Below are positions 1 to 29,007 of a stretch of DNA of 64,000 bases, in pieces (within the stretch, counting starts at the first letter, position 1; each line of letters begins with the position of its first letter). Position numbers and translations under genes: made by a program. The stretch spans positions 1 to 64,000 of the forward strand of contig CAMXAZ010000004.1 in NCBI GenBank assembly GCA_947179295.1. Direction: 5' to 3'. Source of the DNA: an uncultured Muribaculaceae bacterium (GTDB lineage Bacteria > Bacteroidota > Bacteroidia > Bacteroidales > Muribaculaceae). The notes beneath the pieces are model-generated. The model did no database searches. It was not told the DNA's origin and saw only the letters and a list, made by a program, of their open reading frames with translations.

Positions 1-78
1 AAATTCAAGAAAACCTTCGGTCTGGAAATCCCCTACTGGACCGACTCACTGAAAATCTGTATCAACAACCTCAAATAA
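1..78 (+). CDS. rfbD: dTDP-4-dehydrorhamnose reductase, C-terminal end only
   Basis: The frame is open from base 1 and ends at TAA 76-78. The 25 visible residues include FGLEIPYWTDSLKICI, which resembles the C-terminus of RfbD, the enzyme that reduces dTDP-4-keto-rhamnose to dTDP-L-rhamnose in the cytoplasm. The downstream rfbB supports this reading because the two usually sit in one rhamnose operon. The last base of the stop is the first base of the next ATG (TAATG), so translation is probably coupled. The N-terminal portion lies outside the window, so no catalytic residue can be checked. Confidence 0.7.
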   Translation, partial: KFKKTFGLEIPYWTDSLKICINNLK

Positions 79-3280: not shown

Positions 3281-3313
3281 ATCCATATTCAGAGGTCGCC
3301 GGGAAAAAAGAGA

Positions 3314-3346
3314 GTCCTGAAGCCGGCAGATTTCCGGCTCCAGGAC
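3314..3346 (-). terminator. Rho-independent terminator of the SusCD/TlpA operon
   Basis: GTCCTG-A-AGCCGG and CCGGCT-C-CAGGAC form a 12-bp stem with one mismatch around a 7-nt loop. Read on the minus strand it is followed by CTCTTTTTTCCC. It lies 58 nt past the stop of the last TlpA gene. Confidence 0.85.
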
Positions 3347-3404
3347 CCCAATAGTCCATAGACGTCAAAAATATGTAAAGTATGTCAGCGGTTTAAGAAG
3401 CGGT

Positions 3405-4580
3405 TTAAAGTTCCTTTTCAAGGATTTCACTGACCTCATCGGGGTCATGGCCGGCATAGATCAGCTGGCCGGCAGGGTTTACAATCAGCATGTAGGGAAT
3501 TCCACCCAGCTGATAGGCATTCTGCACGGGTGCCACCATATCCTTGGGGAGCCAGAGCTGCGTCCATGTCATCTGTTCCTGCTCCATAGCTTTGCGCCAG
3601 GGCTTTTCAGCGCTATCGACAGACACGGCAAGGATTTCAAGGCGGTCGCCATATTTCTCATGAAGCTCGCGCACATGAGGGATAGAAAGACGGCACGGAC
3701 CGCACCACGAAGCCCAGAAGTCAATCATGACATATCGGCCGTCCGACATGAAATCAGACAGCTTGCGCTGAGTCCCGACAGTGTCAAGAGCGGCAAAGTC
3801 CGTATAGGGTGCATTGCGCTGATATTTGCGGGCATAGTCAAGTTTATTGCTGATGAAAGACATCCGCGCGGTATCGCTCAAGGCCGATAATTTGCTCTCG
3901 ATCTCGTCAAGTTCCGATGCTGTGAACGAGAAAGGGCTATTGAGTATCTCACCCCAGTAAAGACCGGAGATGCTATAGCCGGGATGCTCAGTGATGAAGC
4001 GTTTGCGTGCGGCACTCTCCTGCTTGTTTGCGGCGGCGAGCGCAGCTTTCAGGCGCTTGCTGCCTTCGGGTGACTGATCACGGTTTTCATCAATGTAGGT
4101 GTTGAAATGGGCCTCTTTCGAAGCAAATGTGTAGGGATACATATAGTCTGTGTATTCCTTGTATTCACGCTGTGCCTGTCCGCCATCCACTTTCACATTC
4201 TTTTCCTGCCGGAGGCCGGATGTACCGAAGTAGAAGCCGGGGGCCACGCTGTCGATATGGGCGGCGCTGACTGCCATGTCTGTGTTCTCTACCATCAGAC
4301 AGACAGCCTTGTCCATCTCACCTTCGCGCAGGCTCTTGATTCTGATTTCACACAGAGTCGGAGATGCCACTGATCCGGTCAGGACAAAAGCGCCATCACT
4401 GGCTTTGGTCTCGGCGAGATTTTCTTTCGAACCGCGTTCCTGACTTACAAGCAGAACTTCTGTTCCGGCTTTAAGGCCCGGAATGTCGGCTTTTATTCTG
4501 AATCCGTCCTGTGTCTGCGCTCCAAGTCCGAATGCAGAGCCTACGAGGACTGACAATATCAACGATTTTTTCATTTTCAT
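3405..4580 (-). CDS. TlpA-type thioredoxin with DUF4369-like N-terminal domain (copy 1)
   Basis: This 391-residue exported protein has a signal peptide (MKMKKSLILSVLVGSAFGLGAQ), a DUF4369-like beta domain (about 25-130), a helical linker (about 135-255) and a C-terminal thioredoxin fold. The active site is WASWCGPC with Cys293 and Cys296, and the cis-proline is in GGIPYMLIV (Pro362). The family acts in the periplasm or at the inner face of the outer membrane as disulfide reductases. It is the last gene of the SusCD operon, 18 nt after its paralogue, and a strong terminator follows. The two copies share DFWASWCGPCR, IPHVREL and PWRKAM, pointing to tandem duplication. The substrate is not evident. 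Confidence 0.9.
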   Translation of the reverse strand: MKMKKSLILSVLVGSAFGLGAQTQDGFRIKADIPGLKAGTEVLLVSQERGSKENLAETKASDGAFVLTGSVASPTLCEIRIKSLREGEMDKAVCLMVENTDMAVSAAHIDSVAPGFYFGTSGLRQEKNVKVDGGQAQREYKEYTDYMYPYTFASKEAHFNTYIDENRDQSPEGSKRLKAALAAANKQESAARKRFITEHPGYSISGLYWGEILNSPFSFTASELDEIESKLSALSDTARMSFISNKLDYARKYQRNAPYTDFAALDTVGTQRKLSDFMSDGRYVMIDFWASWCGPCRLSIPHVRELHEKYGDRLEILAVSVDSAEKPWRKAMEQEQMTWTQLWLPKDMVAPVQNAYQLGGIPYMLIVNPAGQLIYAGHDPDEVSEILEKEL

Positions 4581-4598
4581 TCTGTTTTAGATGTTTTT

Positions 4599-5789
4599 TC
4601 ACTTGCCGAGTTCAGCTTCAATGCAGGCTGTGATCTCACGGGGCATATTAGTGGAGCAGATAACCTCACCCTTGTCGTTGAGCAGCACAAGGCGCGGTAT
4701 GGTGGTGATGAAAAAGGCCTGTGCGCCTTTTGCCATCTGATCTCCGGCCTGGAGATGAAACTGGGCCCATTCCATTTTTTCCTCGTCCATAGCCTTGCGC
4801 CAGGGCTCTTCGGTCTCATCGACTGAGATGCTGAAAACGTTGAGCCTGTCGGCATACTTGCTGTTCAGTTCACGCACATGAGGGATGGCCGAGCGGCACG
4901 GTCCGCACCATGAAGCCCAGAAGTCAATGAAGGTGTATTTGCCGGGGGTGAGCAGCGAGGCAAACGGAGAGGTCTTGCCGTCGGTATGTGTCACTTCGAA
5001 TTCCGGACACTGACGTCCGAGTGCATATTTCAGAGCGAACTTCCGGCGCTTCTCCACTGTGGATGTGCGCGCAGTGTCGGAGCAAGCTTTCACAAGGTCG
5101 GCCATAGCGTTGATCTCGTCAGCCGAATAGGTAAACACCTTTTCAAGTTCACGCTGCACGAGATAAGCCGAGTAGTTATAGTCAGGATGCGCGGCTATGA
5201 ATTCGCGCTGGGCTTTCAGCAGATCGGCTTTGGCCGCTTTCTTGATCGCGTCATATTTCACGATCGTGTCTTCATTGCCGTTGGAGTCGAAATATTTTTT
5301 GGCCGACAGATATGAAGCGTCACGCTCTTTGAGCTCGACATCCATGACAGCCGCCACATAGCGGTCAAACTGCGAGTGGGCCTCGCTGCCTGTCACTCTG
5401 ACATGGCGCTCGTCATCTCTTACATTACGCAGGCTGTCAAAAGGCAGTTCGCTTGTAAGCGTCATGGCTCCCGGCTCGGCAATGACACGAGTGGAGAATG
5501 TTCTCATGAAATCCTGACGGGCAGGGACATATTTCAATACCGAAAATTCACACACAGTGGGTGATTTCAGCTCACCTGCAAGTTCAAAGGTTCCGTTGCT
5601 GACCACAGCCGATCCGATCCGGCGGATCTCACCGTTGGGGTCCTCGACATCATTCAATACAACTTTCAGGCTGTCTGACAGACCTGGAATCGAGCCTTTG
5701 AGGCTGAAATTGTCTGCGGCAAATGCCGGAACAGACAAAGTCAGGGCCATAAGCCCTGACAATGAGATTTTAGCAATGTTCGGTTTCAT
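4599..5789 (-). CDS. TlpA-type thioredoxin with DUF4369-like N-terminal domain (copy 2)
   Basis: This 396-residue paralogue of the next gene has the same architecture: a signal peptide ending at PAFAA, a beta-rich DUF4369-like domain, a helical linker and a thioredoxin domain. The active-site motif WASWCGPC places the redox cysteines at 295 and 298, and the cis-proline is in TTIPRLVLL. It keeps the TlpA entry motif RQCPEFEVTHTDGK (about 259-272), with an extra cysteine that copy 1 lacks. A thiol-disulfide oxidoreductase role in the envelope follows from the family. It is fifth in the operon behind SusC, SusD and two lipoproteins. Divergence between the copies suggests different partners. Confidence 0.9.
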   Translation of the reverse strand: MKPNIAKISLSGLMALTLSVPAFAADNFSLKGSIPGLSDSLKVVLNDVEDPNGEIRRIGSAVVSNGTFELAGELKSPTVCEFSVLKYVPARQDFMRTFSTRVIAEPGAMTLTSELPFDSLRNVRDDERHVRVTGSEAHSQFDRYVAAVMDVELKERDASYLSAKKYFDSNGNEDTIVKYDAIKKAAKADLLKAQREFIAAHPDYNYSAYLVQRELEKVFTYSADEINAMADLVKACSDTARTSTVEKRRKFALKYALGRQCPEFEVTHTDGKTSPFASLLTPGKYTFIDFWASWCGPCRSAIPHVRELNSKYADRLNVFSISVDETEEPWRKAMDEEKMEWAQFHLQAGDQMAKGAQAFFITTIPRLVLLNDKGEVICSTNMPREITACIEAELGK

Positions 5790-5825
5790 GTTTTATTCCA
5801 ATTTTTTACACTAAGAGGTCGTCAT

Positions 5826-6542
5826 TTATTCGGCATCTTTGACCCAACGGACAGACATCAGCTGCTGGGTAGAACAGGATTCACGCCATATATAGCCCTG
5901 TCCGTTAAGAAACTTGCGAAAATACGCGCTTTCCTCATCAGGGTTTGACGGATTGATGGTCGATGTCCAGTAATAGCCATAAACCTGCTCGAAATCAAGG
6001 GGAAGAGAAACCCAACCAAATTTCGGCTGAAAAATAAAAGCGCCGCCGAGCTGCATGGCCAGTTCTGTGCCACTGCCCTTTTCCTGCAGGCGGAAAGCCT
6101 GGCCATTACCGCGACGGCCAGTGCGGTCTGTACCAGTCATTCCAAGGTGGCGCTCAAGTTTCTGCCAGTCCTCATCAGAAGGCAGACGCCATCCCTCAGG
6201 AGCTGAAGCCACAGCTCCTGCATAGTTCATCAGATTGCCGTAAACCGGTCTGTAATTTTCAACATAGTCAATTGACTCCGGCTCATCATCATAGCCATCG
6301 AAAATATATTGCCATTCAAAATTGTCATAGTACTGAACTTCCCAGACATCCGGACCATTTTTGGCATTCGAGGTTGTCCACAACAGATCGCCGATACGCA
6401 CCCAGTCATAGACATTCCCTTCATTATCCGTCACAGTGCCGCGTTCCGTCGGGGTAATTTTCGGCAACTTGTCATCATCATCACTGCATGAAGAAAAAAG
6501 CAGCGGAGCTACCGTAAGAAGCAGATATATATACTTTTTCAT
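5826..6542 (-). CDS. FISUMP-domain lipoprotein
   Basis: The 238-residue protein starts with a lipoprotein signal whose lipobox is FSSCSDDDD (Cys19), followed by an acidic stretch typical of Bacteroidetes surface lipoproteins. The body matches the Fibrobacter succinogenes major paralogous (FISUMP) domain: GNVYDWVRIGDLLWTTSNA, then YGNLMNYAGA and APEGWRLPSDEDWQKLERHLG. The domain is common in secreted or surface-anchored proteins of the phylum, without a firm biochemical role. It sits 12 nt after the metallopeptidase-like lipoprotein in the SusCD operon, so it is probably an accessory ligand-binding or scaffold component at the cell surface. Confidence 0.8.
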   Translation of the reverse strand: MKKYIYLLLTVAPLLFSSCSDDDDKLPKITPTERGTVTDNEGNVYDWVRIGDLLWTTSNAKNGPDVWEVQYYDNFEWQYIFDGYDDEPESIDYVENYRPVYGNLMNYAGAVASAPEGWRLPSDEDWQKLERHLGMTGTDRTGRRGNGQAFRLQEKGSGTELAMQLGGAFIFQPKFGWVSLPLDFEQVYGYYWTSTINPSNPDEESAYFRKFLNGQGYIWRESCSTQQLMSVRWVKDAE

Positions 6543-6554
6543 TGTTGATCCATA

Positions 6555-7475
6555 TTAAAATTTATAACCGGTCTGTTCAATCAAAGACTTCATCAGATTG
6601 TATTTCTCCATAATTTTGGCATACTGTCCGAATTCAGCCTCGAAGTCTTCCTGTGTGCGGCCAAATACAGCATCATAAAACGCATTAAAATCACTGTCTT
6701 CGTATGGAAGGCTATCATAACTCGGACGGCTGGTTTTCCGGTATGACATAAATCCGAGTTCGTAAACCCGCGTTATATCTCGATCCCAATCATCAAACAG
6801 ATCTGACAGATATTCCCCGGCACCGGCATTAATTGAAATCGTAGTCCACGGTTTAGCTTCTGTGCTCCAGCAGGAAAAACGGTCTTTTACAATATTTTTA
6901 CATATAGCGGTAGTCCAGGCATCTGACTCTTCCTGAGTAGAGGAATTGACCCATCCATCGACATCGACTGCAAGACAGCGCCAACATGACATCGTATAAG
7001 TTGACCACGAATCGTATCTATATTCACGCCATTTAAGAGAAGTAGTCAGCAGAACAGAATATGGAGATATGGTAGAACCTTCGATATGAGGCAGAATTTC
7101 TTTCACAAACAGATCAGCAGCCTTACGCTTGCCGGCCAGATCATCATCTTCGAATGGAACCATTTCATATTCCAAGCCGGAATTATCACTATTATAGTCC
7201 CAGGCAAAATCAATTGTTTCATTCTTGATTATGTCATTGCCATTTGCGTCCTTTCCGATCACAGTCGATTTAAGTATTTCTGAAAACAGCAGATGGATGC
7301 CGGTCTTGTCATGGAACTCTCGCCGCAAAACCGATTCTTCGTCCGTGGCATCTGCAGGAACAGAAAACAAATCATCATTGATGCCGCTTGGAACGGGATT
7401 GTCATCATCATCTGAACAGCTGACAAACGGCAGACCGATAGCAGCGAGTAATATATAGAGAGCTATCTTTTTCAT
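6555..7475 (-). CDS. Lipoprotein resembling SusD-associated zinc metallopeptidases, HExxH absent
   Basis: I chose the ATG at 7475 because it opens a clean lipoprotein signal (MKKIALYILLAAIGLPFVSC); the ORF track begins 9 codons earlier. The 306-residue product follows SusD, where Bacteroidetes often carry the import-associated metallohydrolase lipoprotein family (Peptidase_Mx1-like). The opening REFHDKTGIHLLF and the closing DFEAEFGQYAKIMEKYNLM resemble that family in placement and pattern. The zinc motif HExxH is not present anywhere. Four cysteines occur outside the lipobox (SCWRC, AICKN, FSCWS), which is unusual and fits disulfide handling by the downstream TlpA proteins. The family link is a weak judgement by eye. 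A pseudo-enzyme or ligand-binding role is inference. Confidence 0.55.
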   Translation of the reverse strand: MKKIALYILLAAIGLPFVSCSDDDDNPVPSGINDDLFSVPADATDEESVLRREFHDKTGIHLLFSEILKSTVIGKDANGNDIIKNETIDFAWDYNSDNSGLEYEMVPFEDDDLAGKRKAADLFVKEILPHIEGSTISPYSVLLTTSLKWREYRYDSWSTYTMSCWRCLAVDVDGWVNSSTQEESDAWTTAICKNIVKDRFSCWSTEAKPWTTISINAGAGEYLSDLFDDWDRDITRVYELGFMSYRKTSRPSYDSLPYEDSDFNAFYDAVFGRTQEDFEAEFGQYAKIMEKYNLMKSLIEQTGYKF

Positions 7476-7518
7476 ATTATTTTCTTTGTTTTGAAAATTC
7501 ATAACAAATTATTTTTAG

Positions 7519-9114
7519 TTACCAGTCCCAGTCATCATAATCATCATCGTCATCTGTCTCAGGCTCCACTCTGTTCGGAGTGCGTTCCGGGCGAGGATTA
7601 TTACCTATGGAAGCCTGGAAATTACGGACTGAACGGGGTATCGGCAAGGTATATGCCGCATCGAACTTTTCAAGCACATAGCGTTCGATATATGCCAGAT
7701 CATAATCACCATAGAAAGCATAATCATGGCTTATGGTTTTTGACCAAGGATAAGGCTGACACACTGTGTAGCGGCGAAGATCGAACCAGCGGTGGCCTTC
7801 GAGCAAAAATTCACGGGCACGCTCGTCACGGATAAAGTCAATCAGATCATTACCTGAAAGAGCATCCAGGTTAACATCTGCAGTCATTCGTGTGTGGAGA
7901 AATGTCACAAGTTTCTGACGCGCAGCCGATTCATTTCCGGCATAAGCCATAGCCTCAGCATAGTTCAGATATGCTTCGGGAGTACGCATAAGGAACGAAC
8001 TTGACACTTCACAGTAAGATCCATACTTGCTACGCTGGCCGCTGACTTTGCGGAATGCATCAGGATAATTCCAGATTTCAGTCTCTCCGATGTAACGTGA
8101 TGCGCGGAGGTCATCCTGTCCATACAGATTTTTCATCTCTTTAGAAACATAATAGCTCGCTTCAATGGGATCTCCAAACCAAGAATCCTCGGCGTCAGCA
8201 AATGCAGCGGCAATGGTGTAACCGCCCATACTGAAAATCGTTTCAGGAGAGCTCTTTGAAAGACAATCCTGTCCGACGGCTATCTGACGAAGATCAAGCA
8301 ATGAGCTCTGCACCGAAAGCACCTTTTCAGCATATTCAGCAGCCTTTTCCCAATTCTGCATATAGAGATACACACGGCTCAGAAGCAAAGAAGCAGCTGT
8401 CTGATTGGCTCTGTAGATTGACTTACGTGTTTTCCCTTCCAGATAAGTTTCTGCGTTTTCAAGGTCTGAAACAATCTGCTTGTAACACGAACTGAGAGGA
8501 GTCCTGGAGTATTCAATATCCTCAATAGTGCCAGATACCTTCAATGGAACACCGAGGTCTGTGTCAGCCGTCTGAGGATTGTAGGGTTTGCCATAAAGGT
8601 TGCTCAGGAGATAATAATAAGCACCTCTCAGAAAATAAGCTTCACCTTTTACTCGCTCTTTCTCGATATCATCACCAAAATTTTTCTCTGGCTGCTCATC
8701 AATAAGTTCGATGACGATATTGCAGATATTGATGCGCTTGTAAAGATAGTTCCAATAAACATCGTCTTTACCTGTATATTTATGTTTTTCATCTATGCCG
8801 GTGTCTGCCATCCAGGTATAGAACGGAAACATATCCAGAGTGTACATGGCATACCCCACACCTCTTTTGCCTTGCTTTGTAGCGTTAGGCTCAATCTCAT
8901 CTGTCATGAAATGGAGTATATCAAGATTACCTGTGTTATCAGATCTCATGGCCGGAGGCAGATAACCATCGCCAAGCAGAAGTTCGTCAAGATCATTCCA
9001 GCTTTCAACTTTTGCAAGGTCCTGAGAATATTCCGAAAGGAAATCCGAGCAGGAAACACATCCGGCCGAAGCTGTGATCAGCAATATGCTCAAAAATTTA
9101 TTTATAGTTTTCAT
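7519..9114 (-). CDS. SusD/RagB-family nutrient-binding outer-membrane lipoprotein
   Basis: The start at 9114 (MKTINKFLSILLITASAG) gives a proper lipoprotein signal with lipobox VSCSDFL, and leaves a short gap after the SusC stop at 9128; the longer ORF would overlap SusC. The 531-residue protein has the SusD layout of TPR-like helices (GEAYFLRGAYYYLLSNLYG, a family hallmark) and a C-terminal region ending DERAREFLLEGHRWFDLRRY, typical of RagB/SusD. It forms the lid over the SusC transporter and binds the ligand at the cell surface. There is no glycoside hydrolase in this operon, so the ligand need not be a glycan. Confidence 0.95.
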   Translation of the reverse strand: MKTINKFLSILLITASAGCVSCSDFLSEYSQDLAKVESWNDLDELLLGDGYLPPAMRSDNTGNLDILHFMTDEIEPNATKQGKRGVGYAMYTLDMFPFYTWMADTGIDEKHKYTGKDDVYWNYLYKRINICNIVIELIDEQPEKNFGDDIEKERVKGEAYFLRGAYYYLLSNLYGKPYNPQTADTDLGVPLKVSGTIEDIEYSRTPLSSCYKQIVSDLENAETYLEGKTRKSIYRANQTAASLLLSRVYLYMQNWEKAAEYAEKVLSVQSSLLDLRQIAVGQDCLSKSSPETIFSMGGYTIAAAFADAEDSWFGDPIEASYYVSKEMKNLYGQDDLRASRYIGETEIWNYPDAFRKVSGQRSKYGSYCEVSSSFLMRTPEAYLNYAEAMAYAGNESAARQKLVTFLHTRMTADVNLDALSGNDLIDFIRDERAREFLLEGHRWFDLRRYTVCQPYPWSKTISHDYAFYGDYDLAYIERYVLEKFDAAYTLPIPRSVRNFQASIGNNPRPERTPNRVEPETDDDDDYDDWDW

Positions 9115-9127
9115 ATATCTGTCATAA

Positions 9128-12100
9128 TTAGAAAGAAACATTCACACCCAATGAATAGCTTGGACGATCGGAAAGTTGAATTGTGGTGAATCCGCCTTGA
9201 GTCGGAGTCTGCCCTTTGAGCTCTTTGTGGCACCAGGTGTGAAGATTGTTGCCTGACGCATGAACTTCCAGACGGCTGAGGCCAAATCCGGCAAGCCATC
9301 GTTCGGGGAGCTCATAGGAGATTGAAATATTAGAAAGCTTTATATAGTCACCACTTACTACACGGATGTCACTATAGTCATACATATCCCAATAGTCATT
9401 GGCAATCATATTGATTCCCATATCAGTAGCTGATCCGGTCACACTCCAGTGCTGGATATACTTTGAATAATATGGACTATTAGAGGCTATAATCGCCGGA
9501 ATGTTCGTATGACGCTCATCTCCCGGTTGTTTCCAGCGCTTGAGATAATCACGGCTCAGATTTTTGTCAGGCCAGATTTCTCCCGCTCTATTAATGGTTG
9601 CGCCACCCATTGATTCGCTCTCAGATCCATACATGCCGAACAGACGGGTTTTGGCTCCAAGACTATAGGCAAATGTAGCGGATGCGTGAATACGCTTCCA
9701 ACGCAAACGAGTGCTGAGACTACCGGACATGTAAGGTTCACGGGAACCGGTCGCAGTAAGTACACGGGTATATGTGTCATATTTGCTCAAGCCTGCAAGA
9801 TCTGCATAATGATCGTGCCAGTCATCAAACATCGGGCCGCCGTCAATAGGATTCAGACCGATAAAACGGTATGAATAGAACGTTCCGACTGATTTGCCTT
9901 TGACAATGGCTGAGCCGTTGAGGAAGTCAGACAGTTGGTAAGATTCTCCTGCCGGGAGAGTCTGTACGGAGTTTGTCACGCGTGAGAATGATGTCGAGAT
10001 GCTCCACTGCCAGTCGCGGGTCTGTATGGGACGGCCGGTAATGCCGATGCTGTAGCCGTTGTTCTGGATGTTACCGCCATTGACCACATAAGATGAGTAG
10101 CCGTTGACAGTTGAAATCGACTTGGTCATGAAAGCGTCTTTGGTATGCTTCCAGTAGAAATCGCCTTCAATCTGCAGGCGGTTATTGAACATTCCAAATA
10201 TGACACCGAGGTTGATACTGGTTGTCTTTTCCCATTTCAGGTCAGGATTCGGGTTTGAAACGGCCGATGAAGTAAATTCACCGAAATAGTCATTCATCGG
10301 ATTTTTCTGAATGATCATCACCGGATACTGAGTGGAAAGCATGTTGCCCTGGAAGCCATAGCTACCTTTGACAGTCAGCTGGTCAAGCCAGGTCTGCTGT
10401 CTGATAAAGTCGAGCTGGGCTGCGTCAAACGACCCGGAAACCGACCATACGGGCAGGATCTTGTCATTTGAGCGGTCGCCGAAATTGTTTGATCCGTCAA
10501 TACGCATGTTGGCATTGAGGAAGATCATACGGCGCCAGTTGTAACTTACAGTGGCGTAGGCGGAAATCACGTTTGATTTGGAATCGGTCAGCGACGGTGT
10601 GTTGCCTGTGATCCATGATTTATACATTGGGTATTTGTCAAGATCTATATCAGACACGAACATCATGCCTCGGTCGGGGAAATATCCGCGGTCCACACGG
10701 CTGTAGCCTTTATAACGGTTCTGAGATGCTTCAAAACCGATGCCCCCGCTGAAATTGTGGATCTCATCGTTGAAATATTTGTTCCAGTCGAGCTGCACAC
10801 GTGCAGTCCAGCTGCGCTGACGGGTATTATTTTTGCTCAGTTCTCCGCCCTGCGGCATTCGGGAATCATCACCGGGAAGCTGGCCATACTCACTGTCTCG
10901 AAGATCAGCCGCATACCAGGTCTTGTCGCCCCAGAAACCTTCGATATCCGTAGCAGCGCTTGTGTATGACAGAATAGCATTGGCGGTCAGCCAGTCTGTG
11001 AAACGGAATTTCAGGTTGGCGTCAAAGGTAAACGATGACTGATCCTGCTTAACACGGCTGTTTTCAAGTTCGTTCAGAATATTGAAATTATACGGATTAC
11101 TGTGGCTTTTGTATTTACCATAATAAGCATATTCTCCATTTTCTTCGTAGGCCGGAATAGCACGGCTGGTAGAGTAGGCATATTCAACAGGATTGATACT
11201 TTCCTGATAGTATTCGCGGTCAGAGATGTTGCCTTTTACGCCGAACGAGCCGGTGAGCCATTTGGCAAAATTGACATCAAGGTTCACAACAGCGCTGTAG
11301 CGCTTATTTTTTGTATTATTGACAACATCATCATTATCAACAAAACCGAGAGAGGCATAATAAGTTCCGCGTTCGCCACCGCCGCTGAGGCTGACTGTGT
11401 GCTGCTGCGAAAAACTGTCGTGAGTCAGGAGATCGAACCAATCGGTGTTCATTGCCTCAAGGGCAGCGACCCCGGCAGTCATCTGCTCTTCGGTGATCTT
11501 GCCGTTATAAAGCTGATACATCAGCCCTTCATATCCGACAATCGGCGCTCTGTCATTATACAGATAATGGTCGGCGAACAGCTCGCGCGAGAACTGGATA
11601 CGCTCTTTGGAACTCATCACGTCGACAGACGAGTCGGAGTAGCGCGGGCGGAGCTTCCAGGTGAAGTTGTTGTTATAGCGGATTGTCGGTTTGCCTTCTT
11701 TACCGCGCTTGGTGGTGATGACGATCACACCGTTGGCGGCCTTGGTGCCGTAGAGGGCTGTGGCAGAAGCGTCTTTAAGCACGTCGAGGCGCTCGATGTC
11801 CTGCGGGTTCAGACCGGCGATTGCGTTGCCGATACGGTTGACGTAGTCAGGGTCATTGAGGTCTTCAGCCGAGATTTCCACCGGGTCGTTGACCACGATA
11901 CCGTCAACCACCCAGAGGGGCTCACGGTTGCCGATGATCGATGAGGTACCTCGTATGCGGATCTTCGGGGCGACTCCCGCTTCACCGGAATTTGACATAT
12001 ACATCATGTCGGGGATCTGGCCTTCGAGCATCTGGTCGATCGAGAGCGCGTCGGCACGAAGAATGTCCTCGGCCTTGATAGAGGTGATGGCCGATGTCGA

Positions 12101-12706
12101 GGCGCGCTTGTCGATCACCTGATAGCCGGTGACCACAACACCGTCAAGTTCGTTGGAGTCATCTTCAAGAATTATATTCAGCGGTTTGCCGGTCCAGTTG
12201 ACGTTTTTCTGCTTCATACCTATATATGACACAACGATAACCGCATTTGTCTGGCCGCCGGAAGGAAGCTGGAAGTTGCCTTCATAGTCAGTGGCTGCGG
12301 CTACTTTAGGTGATTTTTTAAGCCACACCGATGCTCCGGGGAGCGGTTCGCCATGACTGTCTGTAACCCGGCCGGAAATTTTTGACGAAGACGTCTTCTG
12401 AGCCGTCAGTTTCGACAGGACAATTGATTTGTCGACAATTTCATAGCCAAGCCCCAACTGTTCGTTGACCACATGGTTAAGAATCTGGCGCAGGTCCATA
12501 TCATTGTATGTACCTGTGATGGAGCGCCCGGCGCTCCCACTGAGGATGCCCTTGTTGTAGACAAACTCATAGCCGGTGGCTTTCTTGATGGCGTCAAACG
12601 CCGCTTCAGGCGTCTCTCCATTGAAAGTCAAGTCGTAGTTGCGGGCAAACAATGCCGCTGGTAACAGACACCAGGCAACTAACAGTGTTAATAATCTGCG
12701 TTTCAT
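9128..12706 (-). CDS. SusC/RagA TonB-dependent transporter with STN signalling domain
   Basis: This 1192-residue outer-membrane protein has a signal peptide (to about 22), an STN secretin/TonB N-terminal domain (about 23-98, LTFNGETPEAAFDAIKKATG), a carboxypeptidase-regulatory-like domain (about 113-190), a plug carrying the SusC signature (IRIRGTSSIIGNREPLWVVDG, then DASATALYGTKAANGVIVITTK) and a 22-stranded barrel ending in SYSLGVNVSF. The STN domain is the part that contacts FecR-type anti-sigma factors, which matches the fecR gene 61 nt upstream and the divergent ECF sigma factor. Import is TonB-driven, and SusD (next gene) is the lid. The substrate is unknown. Confidence 0.96.
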   Translation of the reverse strand: MKRRLLTLLVAWCLLPAALFARNYDLTFNGETPEAAFDAIKKATGYEFVYNKGILSGSAGRSITGTYNDMDLRQILNHVVNEQLGLGYEIVDKSIVLSKLTAQKTSSSKISGRVTDSHGEPLPGASVWLKKSPKVAAATDYEGNFQLPSGGQTNAVIVVSYIGMKQKNVNWTGKPLNIILEDDSNELDGVVVTGYQVIDKRASTSAITSIKAEDILRADALSIDQMLEGQIPDMMYMSNSGEAGVAPKIRIRGTSSIIGNREPLWVVDGIVVNDPVEISAEDLNDPDYVNRIGNAIAGLNPQDIERLDVLKDASATALYGTKAANGVIVITTKRGKEGKPTIRYNNNFTWKLRPRYSDSSVDVMSSKERIQFSRELFADHYLYNDRAPIVGYEGLMYQLYNGKITEEQMTAGVAALEAMNTDWFDLLTHDSFSQQHTVSLSGGGERGTYYASLGFVDNDDVVNNTKNKRYSAVVNLDVNFAKWLTGSFGVKGNISDREYYQESINPVEYAYSTSRAIPAYEENGEYAYYGKYKSHSNPYNFNILNELENSRVKQDQSSFTFDANLKFRFTDWLTANAILSYTSAATDIEGFWGDKTWYAADLRDSEYGQLPGDDSRMPQGGELSKNNTRQRSWTARVQLDWNKYFNDEIHNFSGGIGFEASQNRYKGYSRVDRGYFPDRGMMFVSDIDLDKYPMYKSWITGNTPSLTDSKSNVISAYATVSYNWRRMIFLNANMRIDGSNNFGDRSNDKILPVWSVSGSFDAAQLDFIRQQTWLDQLTVKGSYGFQGNMLSTQYPVMIIQKNPMNDYFGEFTSSAVSNPNPDLKWEKTTSINLGVIFGMFNNRLQIEGDFYWKHTKDAFMTKSISTVNGYSSYVVNGGNIQNNGYSIGITGRPIQTRDWQWSISTSFSRVTNSVQTLPAGESYQLSDFLNGSAIVKGKSVGTFYSYRFIGLNPIDGGPMFDDWHDHYADLAGLSKYDTYTRVLTATGSREPYMSGSLSTRLRWKRIHASATFAYSLGAKTRLFGMYGSESESMGGATINRAGEIWPDKNLSRDYLKRWKQPGDERHTNIPAIIASNSPYYSKYIQHWSVTGSATDMGINMIANDYWDMYDYSDIRVVSGDYIKLSNISISYELPERWLAGFGLSRLEVHASGNNLHTWCHKELKGQTPTQGGFTTIQLSDRPSYSLGVNVSF

Positions 12707-12767
12707 CTATGAAAAAATAATGATTGGTTTGAAATGCTTTTTGATTTGGTTTTATGACAGGTTTTAT

Positions 12768-13931
12768 CTACTGGCCTGACCGCGAGACGATCACTTTGCC
12801 GTCACTTACTGAGAATTTTATGCCTCCGCATTTTTCAAGAATGGCTATGGCGGTGGTGAAGTCGGAATATCTCGGAATGCTGCCCATGAACTCTTCGCCT
12901 CGGAGCGAATCGTCGGTAAACTCATATTCGAAATCATACCAGCGGCTGAGATCCTGCATGATGCGCATGAGCGTCTGATGCTCGAACACAAAACGCCCCT
13001 TGCGCCAGGAGGTGACGACATCAGTGTTGACCGGCCGAACCCGCACCCTCTGATCTGCGGTTCTGAACACTGCCTGATGGCCGGGAGTCAGGAACAGTTC
13101 CGCATCAGGCTCGTCAAGACGGCTTAGCGATACTTTGCCTCTTTCAAGAGTGGTGTAGACCTCCGTCTCATCCGGATAGTAACGGACGTTGAACTCAGTG
13201 CCGTAGACGCGGATCTGCTGATTGTCGGTCTCGACATAGAACGGCCTGAGGCTGTCTGTGGCAACTGCGAGATAGGCCTCGCCCTCTATCCTGACCTTTC
13301 TGACATCGCCGCTGAAGGTCTTGGGATAGTAGAGCCGCGATGATGAATTGAGCCATACCTCCGTGCCGTCTTCAAGCTGGATCTTGAACTCGCCGCCACG
13401 CGGCACTTCAAGACAGAGATTCCGTTCAAGCGAGTCGGCATTTTCGGTTGTCAGCAACACCGTAGCCACTTTGGCGGTATCTGACTCATTAAGCACAACT
13501 TTATGTCCGGCCGCATCAGAGAGCATGGCGCGTGTGCTGCCGGGCTTTATCTCATCGACAGTCTGAACAGTCTGATATTTTTTCGGAACCTCGGCCATAT
13601 GGACCCCATCAGACCCTACACCTATATTATTATATAAGAAAACGCCTATGCCAAGCGCCACGGCAAAGAGAGCCGCAATGGATACATAATAGCCCTTTAA
13701 ACGCCGACTACGGATGCCATCGACTTCATGCTGCATCTCCCTGCAACTGCGCTCCGAATCAACCATCTGCCACAGATCGAGCTGAGCCTTGACATATGAC
13801 GGATCAGTCAGACGGTCATACAGCCTGCGGTTTTCCTCGGATTCATCGCGCCACGCCTGAAGCTCGGCCTCCTCCTCAGTGGAAAGCCGTGACGAAATCC
13901 TTTTTATGAACAGTTTACTTATTCGCTGCAT
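12768..13931 (-). CDS. FecR-family transmembrane anti-sigma factor
   Basis: This 387-residue protein has a cytoplasmic sigma-binding N-terminus (about 1-80, LSTEEEAELQAWRDESEENRRLYDRL), one transmembrane segment (GYYVSIAALFAVALGIGVFLY) and a periplasmic FecR domain (about 165-260, LEVPRGGEFKIQLEDGTEVWLNSSSRLYYP). A C-terminal STN-like segment (VFEHQTLMRIMQDLSRWYDFEYEF) is the DUF4974 region. It should hold the divergent ECF sigma factor inactive until the STN domain of the loaded SusC signals across the periplasm. It is the first gene of the minus-strand operon. Confidence 0.95.
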   Translation of the reverse strand: MQRISKLFIKRISSRLSTEEEAELQAWRDESEENRRLYDRLTDPSYVKAQLDLWQMVDSERSCREMQHEVDGIRSRRLKGYYVSIAALFAVALGIGVFLYNNIGVGSDGVHMAEVPKKYQTVQTVDEIKPGSTRAMLSDAAGHKVVLNESDTAKVATVLLTTENADSLERNLCLEVPRGGEFKIQLEDGTEVWLNSSSRLYYPKTFSGDVRKVRIEGEAYLAVATDSLRPFYVETDNQQIRVYGTEFNVRYYPDETEVYTTLERGKVSLSRLDEPDAELFLTPGHQAVFRTADQRVRVRPVNTDVVTSWRKGRFVFEHQTLMRIMQDLSRWYDFEYEFTDDSLRGEEFMGSIPRYSDFTTAIAILEKCGGIKFSVSDGKVIVSRSGQ

Positions 13932-14224
13932 CTTCTATTTTGTCTCCGGAGTGTTAAATCAGAGCACTCCTTTTAAACATGTCGTAATTCTTTTTTAGTT
14001 AAAAACGGTTATCAGCCTTTTTATCATATTCGCAAACACCCGGAAAAAGTATATCACAAATATTGACTTTTTTTATGTTTTACAGCATATAAAAATTAAT
14101 TTTTCGTTATTTTCCCACCTTTTTGCTCTATTTTATCGACATTTTTAGTACTTTTGCTATCACTGACTACAATCACTCTTTCAAGAAAGACACTTCAACC
14201 CGTAACCAAGAAGCTGTTCCGATA
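13932..14224. other. AT-rich intergenic region between fecR and the ECF sigma gene
   Basis: This stretch separates the divergent fecR and sigma-factor genes. It is strongly AT-rich around 14040-14120 (TATATCACAAATATTGAC, GCATATAAAAATTAA). Near its right end is a TAnnTTTG promoter candidate for the sigma gene. No TAnnTTTG box was found for the fecR direction, which fits an ECF-dependent promoter whose consensus I cannot recognise. No gene is seen in it. Confidence 0.5.
14122..14156 (+). promoter_or_regulatory. Candidate sigma-A-type promoter of the ECF sigma gene
   Basis: TACTTTTG (14149-14156) fits the Bacteroidetes -7 consensus TAnnTTTG. TTTG at 14122-14125 could be the -33 box, though the 23-nt spacing is longer than the usual 19-21. 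It overlaps the first codons of the longest ORF (TTG 14123), which argues for a downstream translation start. Confidence 0.4.
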
Positions 14225-14803
14225 TTGCATACGTCCGATGACATATTCCACTCTTTCGTCGCCGGGAAAATGGCTCCGTTCTATGAACGCTATTTCCCCG
14301 GAATGGTGATGTATGCCTCCCGGCTTTTAGGCCATGAGCTTGACTGGATGGCCGATGACTGTGTGCAGGACGCCGTGCTCGACTCCTTTCAGAAACGACA
14401 TTCATTCGACACAGCCGAGCAATGGCGCGCCCACATCCTCGCCTGCATCCGCAACAAGGCCGTATCGGCCCTGCGCAAACTCTCGGCCATGAGAAACTAC
14501 ACCGAATCAAAAAACGAAGACGACCATGAAGCCGATGCCACACTGGCACTGATAGAGCATGAAACACTCGACACCCTCTATGCAGCCATCAAAAAACTTC
14601 CGCCCGACTATCGCCAACTGCTCAAACTCAGTTTCGAAGACGGTCTTAAGAACGCAGAAATAGCCGCAGTCCTCGGAGTGGCCGAGATAACCGTGAAGAA
14701 ACGCAAGGTGAAACTGCTTGAAATGCTGCGCAGAAACATGCCTGATGACATTGACCTGCCGACAATCGCCCTTCTGCTCACTACTATGCTCAAAACCGTC
14801 TGA
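14225..14803 (+). CDS. ECF-type RNA polymerase sigma-70 factor
   Basis: The product has sigma region 2 (YERYFPGMVMYASRLLG, then WMADDCVQDAVLDSF) and region 4 (LPPDYRQLLKLSFEDGLKNAEIAAVLGVAEITVKKRKVKLLEML), the minimal two-domain ECF plan. The ORF track starts at TTG 14123, but that codon lies inside a promoter-like element. I use the in-frame TTG at 14225, which gives 192 residues, the usual size; the first ATG, at 14270, would remove part of region 2. The true start is uncertain. It is divergent from fecR and should drive the fecR-susCD operon when FecR releases it. Confidence 0.9.
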   Translation: MHTSDDIFHSFVAGKMAPFYERYFPGMVMYASRLLGHELDWMADDCVQDAVLDSFQKRHSFDTAEQWRAHILACIRNKAVSALRKLSAMRNYTESKNEDDHEADATLALIEHETLDTLYAAIKKLPPDYRQLLKLSFEDGLKNAEIAAVLGVAEITVKKRKVKLLEMLRRNMPDDIDLPTIALLLTTMLKTV

Positions 14804-14990: not shown

Positions 14991-15061
14991 TGTCTTATGG
15001 TGTAATGGTAGCACTGCAGTTTTTGGTTCTGCCTGTCTTGGTTCGAATCCAGGTAAGACAA
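14991..15061 (+). tRNA. tRNA-Gln (anticodon TTG)
   Basis: The 71-nt gene folds as a cloverleaf. The acceptor arm TGTCTTA pairs with TAAGACA, the T-arm carries GGTTCGAATCC, and the anticodon loop TTTTGGT gives anticodon TTG, reading CAA. The discriminator is A and the CCA is not encoded. It has its own promoter and terminator and stands between two SusCD loci. Confidence 0.95.
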
Positions 15062-15068
15062 CGTTTTA

Positions 15069-15290: not shown

Positions 15291-15324
15291 TATGAAAGTG
15301 AAAATGCAAAATTTCAGCCTCCGA

Positions 15325-18300
15325 ATGAAAAGAATTCTGCTATGCATCCTGCTGTCGTTGACCGTCTGGCGTGTCAATGCCGAGAGTCATTATGTATTCC
15401 GGAAGTTAGACATTACCGACGGTCTGTCAAACAGCAATGTCAAAACCATTCTAAAAGACAACTACGGTTATCTCTGGATCGGGACAGCCGCCGGGCTAAA
15501 CAGATATGACGGTTATGGCTTCAGACAATATTCACTCGCGGCATCCGGACGGGAAATGGGCGAGTTCATTGATGACATCCGGTCGCTGCAACAGGATGCC
15601 GACGGGAATATATGGGTGAAAAGCGCTGAGAACTATGCTGTCTACAACTCTCTGAAAGATGATTTCTCGACTGACATCGGCAAGCTGCTGGAATCATATG
15701 GAGTCACCGTACCGCAGCAATACAGGATATACGTCGACCGCGAAGCCAACCTATGGGTGGTCACTGACAAGAAAATCTCTGTCTATGACATGAAAACGCG
15801 CACATTGCGCAGCATCGAAACCGGCATCAGTCTTCTCGGCAACGAAATCAACATAGCTGACAATCAGGCGGGTATTTATTTGCTCTTACAGTCCGGCAAA
15901 ATTCTGAGAATCGACAAAGAGACTCTTTCCATCGAGTCTCTTTCAGCTCCTGAAGGAATAAAATCATTCAACCATATATATGCCGATTACCAGCAGGGCC
16001 TCTGGCTTTTTTCCGACTATGACAATGACATATATTATCGCCAGAAATCAGCCCCATGGAACAAAATCTCTCTGACTCCCGCCACCGGGGCCCAAAGTAA
16101 AGGTATCAGAAGTATTCTTGACGACCGCAACGGCCATGTGTGGATCGGAACAGACCACAACGGAGCCTACATATTCGACCAATCCGACGGTTCATTCCAG
16201 ACTTTACGTAGTAACCTTCTGTCAAGCAGCTCGCTGCCATCTGACAATGTCTCCTGCATTTATCAGGATGAATCAGGAACAATATGGCTCGGACATAACA
16301 AATCAGGTATATCATATTATAACAACGACCTGCTTCAGTTTGAAAATTTCAGCCTATGCAGAGGCCTTGACGTAGCATCGCTGCTCACTGACAGCAGAAA
16401 CAATCTGTGGATAGGCACCGATGGCAACGGTCTGCTGATCCTGCGCCCCGGAAGCGAGACAATAGAACGGATGCCGGCTGTGTTCAACGGCTCGATAATC
16501 AGTCTGGAAGAAGATTCCGACGGCCGCATATGGGTCGGCAGCTACGGCAACGGTCTTTACTGCATCGACGGCAACAACGTCAGACATTTCACAACCGCCA
16601 ACAGCTCACTCATATCAGACATTATATGGGCCCTTCAGAACGACGGAGCGGGCAATATCTGGATAGCAACACTTAATGGAACACAATATGTCAGCGGCAA
16701 AACAGACAATTTCATATCCGTCCTTACAGCCAAAGGTGAACAGATCAACTCCATGTGTCTCCACTCAGACAATAGCGACACAGTCTATATCGGATCATTC
16801 GACGGCTTATATAAAGTTGACACAGCCACAAAAAAAGCAAGCGTACACTTCACAAACCGCCGCAATACCCAAAGCCTGAAACAAGGATTTGTTTCCCAGA
16901 TCTATAAAGACCGCGAAGGGCGCCTGTGGGTGGGTCATAACCAAGGCCTCACGATCTGGGACACAGCACGTGACTCAATGTATTACCTTGATAAAAAGAG
17001 CGGACTGTGCGACAACATGATCCGAGCCATCCTCGAAGACAATGACGGCCACATATATGCATCGACAAGCAACGGTCTCTCAATAATCACCGTCCTGGAG
17101 TCCGCCGACGGGGTTCTGAGCTACAGCATGAGAAACTACACTAAAAAAGACGGTCTCAAAAGCACATTTTTCAATTCAACAGCCGTCACTTGCCCCGACA
17201 GCAGCTCCATTCTGTTCGGAACCTCAGACGGCTGCATCTCGTTCTATCCTGAAAAAGTGTTCAGAGACCGGCGCATGCCTCCTGACATACTGTTCACCGA
17301 TCTTTACATCGGAGGCACACGCATAGGCATCGACTCTCTCTATGAGGACCGCCTGATTCTTAAAAATGCGCTGGAGGCAACAAAGCAGATAGAACTCAGC
17401 TATGACGACAGACTTATCACAATCGAATTTACAGCCTGTGACCTTACCGGCCAATCCGGAGTCCGCTATGCCTATATGCTTGAAGGCATTGACTCCAAAT
17501 GGATCTTTTCTGATGAAAACAAAGTGACTTTCACTTCACTGCCATATGGCAATTACAGACTTCTGGTAAAATCCGGACTTCCGAACGGCAACTGGAAAGA
17601 AGATCCGGCCATACTTGAAATCCGCGTCAGACCTCCGTTCTACATGTCCATCTGGGCATGTATCATATACCTCTTCATTATTATCGGCGGTGTAATACTG
17701 GTGACAGCTCTCATCAGAAGAAGACACCGCCAGAAACTCGCCATCCAGCGACAGACTATCGAAAGCCAGCAGATTGTACGCGTCAATGAACTCAAGCTCA
17801 AATTCTTCACTAACATCAGCCACGATCTGCGCACACCGCTCACTCTTATCATGGCACCTCTACAGGTCTTGCTTGACGAAGTGAAAGATGAACCGACGAG
17901 AAAGAAACTGCTGACAATCTTCTCAAACGCCCGACGGCTTCTCGACCTCATCAACACCCTGCTCGATTTCCGCAAACTCGATGTAGGAGCTGAAGGACTC
18001 CACTGTCGTAGAGATGACATCATGCGCTTCATCAGCGAACAGTGTGCCCTTTTCACAGACTACGCGGCAAACCGCGGCATGAATTTTACCGCCGAATGCG
18101 ATCCGTCAGGCTATATGATGGACTTTGACTCCACGAAAGTAGGCAAAATCCTTAACAACCTGCTGTCAAATGCTTTTAAATATACTCCTGACGGAGGAAA
18201 TGTAAGCGTGAAAGCCACTCTGAAAAATGGAGAACTGATAATCCGCATCGCCGACAGCGGACAAGGCATAACCCCGGAAGCAAAAAAGCATATCTTCGAA

Positions 18301-19320
18301 CGCTTCTATCAGGGCGAGCAAGGCAACCATAAGACCGGAAGCGGAATCGGACTGCATATAGCTAATGAATACGCCCGCATGCACGGAGGCGGTATCACAG
18401 TCAGCGACAACCATCCCAAAGGATCTGTATTCACGCTGACTCTACCGGTTGACGGATGCTCCGCTCAATCCAATCCTGAAAAAAACTCCGGCGACTCCGG
18501 CGGGACTCCGGCCGAACCATCGGCTCCTGAAAACATCTCTGAAGAATCATCTGCCGCAAACTCTCCAGCCACCATTCTTATTGTAGATGACAACGAGGAG
18601 TATCGTGATTTCATAGCCGACACCCTATCCAAAGACTATACGATATTCAAAGCCGGAAACGGACGTGAGGCGCTTGACATCATGGCCAAAGAAAACATCA
18701 GCCTGATTGTTAGCGATGTGATGATGCCGGTTATGGACGGAATGGAACTATGCCGGCAGGTCAAGACCAATATCCGGTGGTCTCACATCCCGGTCATACT
18801 GCTGACCGCCAAAACCGCTGAGGAATACCGTCTCGAAGGGCTTGAACTCGGAGCCGACGACTATCTGACCAAACCGTTCAATCTCAAGCTGCTGCAACTG
18901 CGCATAAAGAAATTCATCGACCTGTTCGAGCGCAACCACCGGATGTTCAGCAATAAGCTCGATGTCTCCCCAAGCGAGATCACCATAACCTCTCTTGATG
19001 AGAAACTCGTTGAAAAAGCCATTCGCATTGTCGAGGAGCATATGAGCGACTCTGACTTCTCCGTCGAGTTACTGAGTTCCGAACTTGCCCTTAGCCGCGG
19101 ATATCTCTATAAAAAGCTTATGGCTATCACAGGCAAAGGCCCGGCCGAATTCATACGCACTATCCGACTGAAACGCGCCCGTCAGCTGCTTGAGCAAAGC
19201 CAAATGCAGGTTGCCGAAATCGCCTACATGTGCGGTTTCAACTCTCCGCGACGCTTTGCCCAGAATTTCAAAAACGAGTTCGGAATGTTACCTTCTGAGT
19301 TTTTGAAGGGTCGTACTTGA
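15325..19320 (+). CDS. Hybrid two-component system regulator (HTCS)
   Basis: The 1331-residue protein fuses sensor and regulator in one chain. It has a signal peptide (MKRILLCILLSLTVWRVNA), two seven-bladed propellers built of Reg_prop repeats (for example GYLWIGTAAGLNRYDG and NIWIATLNGTQYV), a Y_Y_Y domain (about 690-770), one transmembrane helix (SIWACIIYLFIIIGGVILVTAL), a HisKA domain with His833 in NISHDLRTPLTL, an ATPase domain (NLLSNAFKYTPDGG, GSGIGLHIANEYA), a receiver with Asp1131 in SDVMMPVMDG and an AraC-type HTH at the C-terminus. Family members sense an oligosaccharide in the periplasm and activate the adjacent polysaccharide utilisation locus. The start at 15325 is preferred because the promoter overlaps the longer ORF. 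Confidence 0.96.
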   Translation: MKRILLCILLSLTVWRVNAESHYVFRKLDITDGLSNSNVKTILKDNYGYLWIGTAAGLNRYDGYGFRQYSLAASGREMGEFIDDIRSLQQDADGNIWVKSAENYAVYNSLKDDFSTDIGKLLESYGVTVPQQYRIYVDREANLWVVTDKKISVYDMKTRTLRSIETGISLLGNEINIADNQAGIYLLLQSGKILRIDKETLSIESLSAPEGIKSFNHIYADYQQGLWLFSDYDNDIYYRQKSAPWNKISLTPATGAQSKGIRSILDDRNGHVWIGTDHNGAYIFDQSDGSFQTLRSNLLSSSSLPSDNVSCIYQDESGTIWLGHNKSGISYYNNDLLQFENFSLCRGLDVASLLTDSRNNLWIGTDGNGLLILRPGSETIERMPAVFNGSIISLEEDSDGRIWVGSYGNGLYCIDGNNVRHFTTANSSLISDIIWALQNDGAGNIWIATLNGTQYVSGKTDNFISVLTAKGEQINSMCLHSDNSDTVYIGSFDGLYKVDTATKKASVHFTNRRNTQSLKQGFVSQIYKDREGRLWVGHNQGLTIWDTARDSMYYLDKKSGLCDNMIRAILEDNDGHIYASTSNGLSIITVLESADGVLSYSMRNYTKKDGLKSTFFNSTAVTCPDSSSILFGTSDGCISFYPEKVFRDRRMPPDILFTDLYIGGTRIGIDSLYEDRLILKNALEATKQIELSYDDRLITIEFTACDLTGQSGVRYAYMLEGIDSKWIFSDENKVTFTSLPYGNYRLLVKSGLPNGNWKEDPAILEIRVRPPFYMSIWACIIYLFIIIGGVILVTALIRRRHRQKLAIQRQTIESQQIVRVNELKLKFFTNISHDLRTPLTLIMAPLQVLLDEVKDEPTRKKLLTIFSNARRLLDLINTLLDFRKLDVGAEGLHCRRDDIMRFISEQCALFTDYAANRGMNFTAECDPSGYMMDFDSTKVGKILNNLLSNAFKYTPDGGNVSVKATLKNGELIIRIADSGQGITPEAKKHIFERFYQGEQGNHKTGSGIGLHIANEYARMHGGGITVSDNHPKGSVFTLTLPVDGCSAQSNPEKNSGDSGGTPAEPSAPENISEESSAANSPATILIVDDNEEYRDFIADTLSKDYTIFKAGNGREALDIMAKENISLIVSDVMMPVMDGMELCRQVKTNIRWSHIPVILLTAKTAEEYRLEGLELGADDYLTKPFNLKLLQLRIKKFIDLFERNHRMFSNKLDVSPSEITITSLDEKLVEKAIRIVEEHMSDSDFSVELLSSELALSRGYLYKKLMAITGKGPAEFIRTIRLKRARQLLEQSQMQVAEIAYMCGFNSPRRFAQNFKNEFGMLPSEFLKGRT

Positions 19321-19384
19321 TTCATGATACATCGCGGCGCATTCCAGAACACATAATGACATAAGACTATCCGGATGCTGTAAC

Positions 19385-19392
19385 TACATTTG
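19385..19392 (+). promoter_or_regulatory. Candidate -7 box before the PUL genes, no -33 box
   Basis: TACATTTG matches TAnnTTTG 42 nt before the GH43 start, but nothing like TTTG lies 19-21 nt upstream. A promoter with only the -7 element fits activation by the neighbouring HTCS, though that is inference. Confidence 0.35.
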
Positions 19393-19433
19393 TTTCAGCT
19401 AATCATTATCAGCCTCTAACACAAATCAGCCTT

Positions 19434-20933: not shown

Positions 20934-21015
20934 TCACACATTGCCATAGACACAGACGCTCTATACATCTTAAACTTGAAAACATTTATCATCTTACCAT
21001 TAATATCATGAAGTT

Positions 21016-24000: not shown

Positions 24001-24171
24001 GAGAACCTCCGCCTCTATTTCAACGTGCAGAATCCTTTCACATTCACCCGCTACAAAGGATTCGACCCCGAAATCGGAGCCTACAACTACAATGTGCTCA
24101 CACGCGGCATCGACTATGCCCGCTATCCGTCACAGGTGATCTACACCTTCGGACTCAATGTCTCACTTTAA
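21016..24171 (+). CDS. SusC/RagA TonB-dependent transporter (PUL)
   Basis: This 1051-residue outer-membrane transporter has a signal peptide (to FPSFAQ), a carboxypeptidase-regulatory-like domain (about 33-115), the TonB box/plug junction LDEVVVVGYGTMKRSDLTGS, the SusC plug signature (VSIRGTNSLNGNEPLYVVDG) and a barrel ending QVIYTFGLNVSL. Unlike the SusC at 9128-12706 it has no STN domain, as expected for a system controlled by an HTCS rather than by FecR/ECF. It is followed 11 nt later by its SusD partner. Import of oligosaccharides from the enzymes around it is the expected role. Confidence 0.96.
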   Translation: MQIALKKQRHLLRLIVAVLLGCVVFPSFAQDFKLTGVVRGADDNMPLIGATVRVQSGAVTVTDADGAFSVNVRKGQTVTFSYIGYTTQSIKVSDRSKVEIYLKEDSRTLDEVVVVGYGTMKRSDLTGSVVSVSAEDIKKTVATSLDQALQGRAAGVQVTQNSGAPGGGISVSIRGTNSLNGNEPLYVVDGVPLSGQADGNSNALSAINPSDIVSMEVLKDASATAIYGSRASNGVIMITTRRGEAGKTKLSYEGYYGIQNIPDRLDVMDLRQFATYRNLRAEVMGFGATKEFADVSILGKGTDWQDEIFRTAHMHNHQLTVSGGNDWGKYAIGLGYLGQDGIAIGSDFERLSGRINIDTNITKWLSFGVSASLSRTKQTNTIDNGNIIRTALDQHPNVPVRNPDGSYGYQTEDNNFGTFYANPVADALLREDYNRGTDFYGNLFADFKIIDGLNLRVEYGGGFNYSNHYYYRPTYDYGFFIQDSESSRSASNGKNYFFKTFLTYDKHIRNHSFNVMIGHESSENEYEYLSGSRKNYFLNSVHELVAGDALTAKNNSSRGSGSMESYFGRANYNFADRYLLTFTLRADGSSNFGKANRWGWFPSAAFGWRISQEKFMKNVEPVNNLKLRLGWGIVGNQNAGAYAYGTTMASSATIWGAGFYAGNYSNDKLKWEETKSYNVGLDLAMFNNRLEFIIDAYLKKTDNLLMQASLPDYVTSIISSPWVNAGAIENKGFEWTLNTVNISTRDFSWRTGFTFSLNRNKVTKLYTKTSSITGKIGADTYTNTVVGQPVGQFYGYNVIGMFKEADDFYVKDKNGDFMLDDNFNRILVAIPEDKTIKENEIWYGDYIFEDVNKDGVINESDRKFIGNPEPKFTYGFNTTLTYKDFDFNLSLVGVHGNKVFNYLRQVYTDPMRNSNLLLETTRLANVGLIDPDGGHTFENMHVINSDARICRIALDNSNNNNRMSSYFVEDGSYLRVKNISLGYTFPKQLIKRASIENLRLYFNVQNPFTFTRYKGFDPEIGAYNYNVLTRGIDYARYPSQVIYTFGLNVSL

Positions 24172-24182
24172 CCTGAACACCA

Positions 24183-25766: not shown

Positions 25767-25801
25767 GAGAGTGGTATATCAAACGAAATAACATGATAAC
25801 A

Positions 25802-28994: not shown

Positions 28995-29007
28995 CATACT
29001 ATTCGCC

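Follow-up and report, generated by a model that had tools for sequence, protein, structure and literature searches.

A conserved SusCD operon with paired thioredoxins, a candidate importer of disulfide-bearing peptides in Muribaculaceae

Glycan import is the role usually assigned to SusCD systems. In the levan and dextran utilisomes of Bacteroides thetaiotaomicron, SusC and SusD are encoded together with two extra surface lipoproteins, a glycan-binding protein and a glycosidase (PMC7618045), and RagAB of Porphyromonas gingivalis is a SusCD-type importer of peptides (PMC11817032). Here, in a 64,000-nucleotide stretch of DNA (the window) from an uncultured Muribaculaceae bacterium (GCA_947179295.1, contig CAMXAZ010000004.1), we describe a SusCD operon in which the transporter genes are followed by genes for a lipoprotein of a new family, here called Mx, a FISUMP lipoprotein and two DUF4369-TlpA oxidoreductases. 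From sequence comparisons, and with confidence only slightly above even, we read this cassette as a TonB-driven system that imports disulfide-bearing peptides and reduces them in the periplasm, switched on by a FecR/extracytoplasmic function (ECF) sigma factor pair.

The likeness to RagAB lies in the SusC/SusD pair and in the peptide cargo that we propose here; to our knowledge, the RagAB locus has no FecR/ECF pair, Mx, FISUMP lipoprotein or thioredoxin. Like the utilisomes, the cassette encodes two extra lipoproteins with its SusC and SusD, but in place of a glycan-binding protein and a glycosidase these are Mx and FISUMP, with thioredoxin genes after them. Compared by description, MGYG000391083_00436 of Muribaculaceae is a further comparable case, with DUF4369 plus thioredoxin and TonB transporters nearby; it differs in being described as an outer-membrane lipoprotein that is linked to high-fat diet and possibly to iron (PMC13404670). 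We found no description of the cassette in the searchable open-licence literature, where absence is no proof, and this gene set of Muribaculaceae and several related Bacteroidales is apparently undescribed.

The operon occupies 13931-3405 of the minus strand, with seven genes in the order FecR, SusC, SusD, Mx, FISUMP and two DUF4369-TlpA, and the ECF sigma factor is encoded divergently on the plus strand (Table 1). The gene content and coordinates given in a preliminary description of the locus held on re-annotation, except that the sigma gene proved divergent and the label 'metallopeptidase' for Mx was unsupported. Gaps of 12-61 nucleotides separate the genes of the operon, those for SusC and SusD overlap, and a terminator stem of 16 pairs (10 G-C) followed by a T run lies 3' of the last TlpA gene; the intergenic gaps of the operon hold no site comparable to this terminator (3349-3311). 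Because the gaps are short and the 16-bp-stem terminator follows the last TlpA gene, the TlpA genes are likely to be co-transcribed with susCD.

The preliminary description suggested looking for the same gene order in relatives, and it recurs in 22 other loci, so the arrangement is not due to chance. The resulting 23 loci with the order SusC-SusD-Mx-FISUMP belong to the genus of this bacterium, other Muribaculaceae, Odoribacter, Butyricimonas and Prevotellaceae. Within the genus, 8 of 27 genomes have a SusC orthologue of 67-74% identity (the next SusC reaches at most 37%), and the same eight are those with full-length Mx; the seven other genus loci run SusC-SusD-Mx-FISUMP-TlpA-TlpA, save one that ends with its contig after FISUMP. 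Run against named genomes, the Mx alignment found the cassette in Odoribacter sp. Z80 (L061) and in two metagenome-assembled genomes, one of Butyricimonas (L060) and one of Prevotellaceae (L062), and it also found five of the genus loci in genomes with names like Muribaculaceae bacterium Isolate-110. Searches at family level (397 genomes) and at order level (393 genomes) yielded 18 further regions, one of which was the Odoribacter locus again (L079). All 21 of the 23 loci that can be read past FISUMP have one to three thioredoxins downstream, of TlpA or Thioredoxin_7 type, and WCxxC is kept in every one of these proteins.

Both TlpA proteins of the operon combine DUF4369 with Thioredoxin_8 and carry WCGPC; with a thioredoxin-fold domain, a CxxC motif and an export signal, they are TlpA/ResA-like. 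TlpA 1 is 41-60% identical to the protein encoded at the same position in relatives, and the two TlpA genes have a 184-nucleotide stretch in common (71% identity); DUF4369 matches (E 0.001 or better) occur at five places in the genome, two of them within the operon. Since both proteins have WCGPC and the genome encodes one DsbD-type reductant supplier, they would be expected to act as reductants in the periplasm. Other SusCD loci can have thioredoxins too, although this is far from general: one lies downstream in 4 of the 20 other SusC loci of this genome and is absent from 16.

These proteins could instead serve the system itself, either by reducing or pairing the cysteines of SusD, Mx, FISUMP and SusC during export or by protecting the transporter from oxidation, whatever the cargo, which we regard as unlikely. 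Orthologues of SusD contain 3-14 cysteines and those of Mx 1-8 (both counts include the lipid-anchor cysteine), the genome has a disulfide-forming enzyme of the VKOR type as well as DsbD, and surface-protein protection has been proposed for a Muribaculaceae thioredoxin (PMC13404670). However, cysteine counts vary widely among orthologues, both in Mx and in FISUMP (1-12), most other SusCD loci of this genome lack a thioredoxin, and the peptidases found in related operons are left unexplained.

These peptidases, packed tightly into the operon in seven loci of the SusC clade, belong to four unrelated families, which argues for peptide or protein cargo. An M16 peptidase is encoded in the operons of L061, L062, L076 and L080, a TldD/PmbA-like protein in that of L089, an aspartyl protease in that of L086 and a Met-zincin in that of L088, the only readable one in the clade that lacks a thioredoxin; none of the 20 other SusC loci of this genome has an M16 gene. 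In L089, the last gene of a SusCD-thioredoxin operon encodes a protein of 1086 residues with two PmbA/TldD C-terminal-type matches (L089:13507-16767).

No carbohydrate-active enzyme is encoded among the eight genes here, and none was seen in the operons of the 22 other cassettes; of the features of a polysaccharide utilisation locus, the SusC/SusD pair is present and such enzymes are missing from the operon. The system might nevertheless take up glycans or glycopeptides, for example from mucin, with hydrolases encoded elsewhere, but we consider this improbable. Its SusCD architecture and the resemblance of FISUMP to C-type lectins would suit such a role, as would ECF/FecR control, which is common in host-glycan loci of Bacteroides, and in four genus loci (L018-L021) a LacZ-type GH2 gene lies divergently upstream. 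Against this stand the lack of carbohydrate-active enzymes in the operons and the distribution of GH2: no more than four or five of 27 genomes have a close orthologue, which led us to reject GH2 as a component of the system, and the present genome has just a 40% paralogue on another contig. The contrast first drawn for this locus, between glycan enzymes as the usual companions of SusCD and redox proteins here, is therefore borne out in that no operon glycosidase was seen, but softened by the four other SusC loci with a thioredoxin and by GH2 beside four congeners.

In a tree of SusC proteins, those of the cassette form one group (support 0.70) that clusters with the SusC of paralogous SusC-SusD-Mx-like-thioredoxin loci in the genus (L063-L066; support 0.97), and the sister group of this thioredoxin-bearing clade is the SusC of Peptidase_Mx1 (PF15890) loci (support 0.995). 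The latter loci likewise encode a similar-sized lipoprotein straight after SusD, and their sister position fits a weak profile similarity between Mx and Mx1 over the C-terminal part (hhalign 86%, E 5e-6); against the lipoprotein of the paralogous loci, Mx scores 97.5%. They differ in that Mx1 has HHExxH and Mx does not, and in that neither thioredoxin nor FISUMP was found in the nine SusCD loci with a true Peptidase_Mx1 that we examined. The one Mx1 copy of this genome (L046, G000:C25:5000-23000) lies in a SusC-SusD-Peptidase_Mx1 locus that continues with two more lipoproteins and is conserved across Bacteroidales. The genome also contains two minimal SusC-SusD-Thioredoxin_7 loci (L121 and L125, on G000:C87 and G000:C31), whose SusC falls just outside the thioredoxin/Mx1 clade.

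Mx itself has no Pfam or NCBIfam match (in Pfam none even at E=10, and none to Peptidase_Mx1 above the Pfam cut-off), and its AlphaFold2 model (predicted local distance difference test score, pLDDT, 82) found no fold match in the PDB (best E 0.39). The HExxH zinc motif is absent from all eight aligned genus Mx proteins and from the profile alignment, and we therefore rejected an active zinc peptidase; without the HHExxH that Mx1 has, Mx is not expected to act as a peptidase. At best, Mx is possibly a non-catalytic remote relative of Peptidase_Mx1; the earlier name 'metallopeptidase-like' has nothing behind it beyond the weak hhalign match and the sister position of the SusC genes. A 'metal' lipoprotein beside an outer-membrane protein also raised the identity of a subunit of the β-barrel assembly machinery (BamG, BamH or BamM), which we rejected; that machinery is an essential BamA-bound complex without thioredoxins (PMC12611786), and the sole PDB sequence match of Mx, to a BamM, is confined to residues 2-46, where the signal peptide and lipobox lie (E 0.03). 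Mx defines a new family of predicted surface lipoproteins.

Turning to regulation, the ECF protein is 76-78% identical to its counterparts in L022-L024, and its conservation begins at TTG 14225, not at 14123. Alignment with the same loci revealed that the region separating the ECF and FecR genes keeps two or three sequence blocks across four genomes, GATATACTTTTT...TTTGCGAATA and TTTTAACTAAAA, which are candidate sigma-dependent promoters. The transporter had been called an STN-SusC; Pfam calls no STN domain in it, but residues ~30-104 form an N-terminal extension of STN size that tracks FecR, with FecR upstream in 16 of the 17 loci with the extension and in none of the 10 without (Fisher p 1.3e-6, uncorrected for relatedness). 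A TonB-dependent transporter with an N-terminal signalling extension, FecR and an ECF factor are thus encoded together, as in a transporter-signalling system, and the co-occurrence of extension and FecR supports signalling from SusC to FecR. Some relatives have lost FecR-linked signalling or never had it.

FecR/ECF pairs are classically linked to iron, and the cassette might import iron, haem or a metal complex with a redox release step, although this too seems improbable to us. A DUF4369 protein of B. thetaiotaomicron is 1.6-fold up without iron, its gene being listed as mildly raised (PMC10434189), and iron has been suggested for the Muribaculaceae DUF4369 thioredoxin near TonB transporters (PMC13404670). 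However, Pfam and NCBIfam annotation of the operon proteins gave no HmuY or other haem-binding or siderophore domain, the match of SusC to a siderophore receptor model is weak and local (30.6 bits against a cut-off of 1100), and the association with peptidases is left unexplained. The metal complex that the preliminary description had listed among possible ligands found no support, the published ties of DUF4369 to iron being loose (PMC13404670, PMC10434189).

At the cell envelope, lipoboxes are present in SusD, Mx and FISUMP, and in the latter two they are followed by S/D/E runs, which are typical of surface export in Bacteroidota; all three are predicted to be surface-located. SusD ends in an acidic/aromatic tail (7519-7570, minus strand; ETDDDDDYDDWDW) that takes longer forms elsewhere, such as DDDDDWDDDWDDWDDDWDDDDW in L022, and occurs in most Muribaculaceae orthologues but is absent from L018 and many distant ones. 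The AlphaFold2 model of FISUMP (pLDDT 82.5) gave weak fold matches (best E 0.04), of which the best are nearly all C-type lectin-like, so that FISUMP is probably a C-type-lectin-like binding protein. Fib_succ_major domains have been reported as targets of diversity-generating retroelements (PMC4159848), and the cassette offers a way to test whether FISUMP domains serve as nutrient receptors. Of the solved SusC proteins whose ligand is known, RagA (6sli) gives the highest score, 213 bits, above the levan, dextran and BT_2264 proteins, a ranking that is weak evidence; the closest solved SusCD is PDB 8ypt/8ypu, and we could trace no paper or ligand for either entry.

Taken together, the thioredoxins in 21 of 21 readable loci, the seven peptidase loci and the lack of an operon glycosidase strengthen the original suggestion of a peptide or disulfide-bearing ligand that is processed reductively; the nature of the ligand, the direction of the redox reaction, the surface location and the sigma target sites are what we infer from sequence. 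In such an importer, SusC would form the barrel and SusD the lid, and the cargo would be peptides or small protein fragments with disulfide bonds. Mx and the C-type-lectin-like FISUMP protein may capture or present the ligand at the surface, holding the place of the glycan-binding protein and glycosidase of a glycan utilisome. Ligand-loaded SusC would signal through its STN-like extension to FecR, freeing the ECF sigma factor to increase expression of the operon. Once the ligand has reached the periplasm, the TlpA pair would reduce its disulfides before peptidases, such as the one encoded in the operon of some relatives, finish its digestion.

Several points weigh against this importer. FISUMP and C-type-lectin folds bind glycans too, and GH2 adjoins the cassette in L018-L021; in most cassettes, the present one included, the operon lacks a peptidase gene; published work ties iron to DUF4369 thioredoxins encoded close to TonB transporters (PMC13404670, PMC10434189); and the targets of the thioredoxins might be envelope proteins of the bacterium itself. 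A more specific form of peptide import, in which the cargo consists of cationic peptides rich in disulfides, for example defensins, from the host or from microbes, is in our view highly improbable. There, Mx, FISUMP and the acidic/aromatic tail of SusD would bind the peptide and the periplasmic thioredoxins would unlock it, so that an antimicrobial is turned into food or cleared. If import of disulfide-bearing peptides is correct, the SusCD clade with thioredoxins and, in some members, peptidases would be a protein-nitrogen route for gut Bacteroidales and would suggest that what is imported undergoes chemical reduction in the periplasm. The named isolates Odoribacter sp. Z80 and Muribaculaceae bacterium Isolate-110 carry the cassette, and its function can therefore be tested.

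Table 1 Features of the SusCD-thioredoxin locus, in window coordinates.
Feature	Position	Strand	Basis
ECF sigma factor; likely start TTG 14225, 192 residues	14225..14803	+	PF08281/PF04542; conservation with L022-L024
Divergent intergenic region, candidate ECF-dependent promoters (putative function)	13932..14224	.	Alignment with L022-L024
FecR anti-sigma regulator	12768..13931	-	PF04773, PF16344; 64-66% identity in L022-L024
SusC TonB-dependent transporter, N-terminal STN-like extension	9128..12706	-	TIGR04056, 656 bits
SusD surface lipoprotein (predicted), acidic/aromatic C-terminal tail (DDDDDYDDWDW)	7519..9141	-	PF14322, PF07980
Mx lipoprotein, new family	6555..7502	-	Lipobox FVSC-SDDDD; adjoins SusD in 23 loci
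FISUMP (Fib_succ_major) lipoprotein	5826..6542	-	PF09603, 84 bits
DUF4369-TlpA thiol-disulfide oxidoreductase 1	4599..5789	-	PF14289, PF13905; WCGPC; cleavable Sec-type signal
DUF4369-TlpA thiol-disulfide oxidoreductase 2	3405..4580	-	PF14289, PF13905; WCGPC; cleavable Sec-type signal
Intrinsic terminator at operon end	3311..3349	-	Stem and T run

Just downstream of the operon, past the terminator, lies a gene for a tyrosine recombinase/integrase (PF00589, PF13102; 2082-3191, minus strand). A mobile island between this integrase and tRNA-Gln (14991-15062) was considered and rejected, as there were no convincing flanking direct repeats. Beside tRNA-Gln, the plus strand at 15292-34108 encodes a large hybrid two-component regulator (Reg_prop, HisKA, HTH AraC) and then a second SusCD with apparently several glycoside hydrolases, an ordinary-looking glycan locus.

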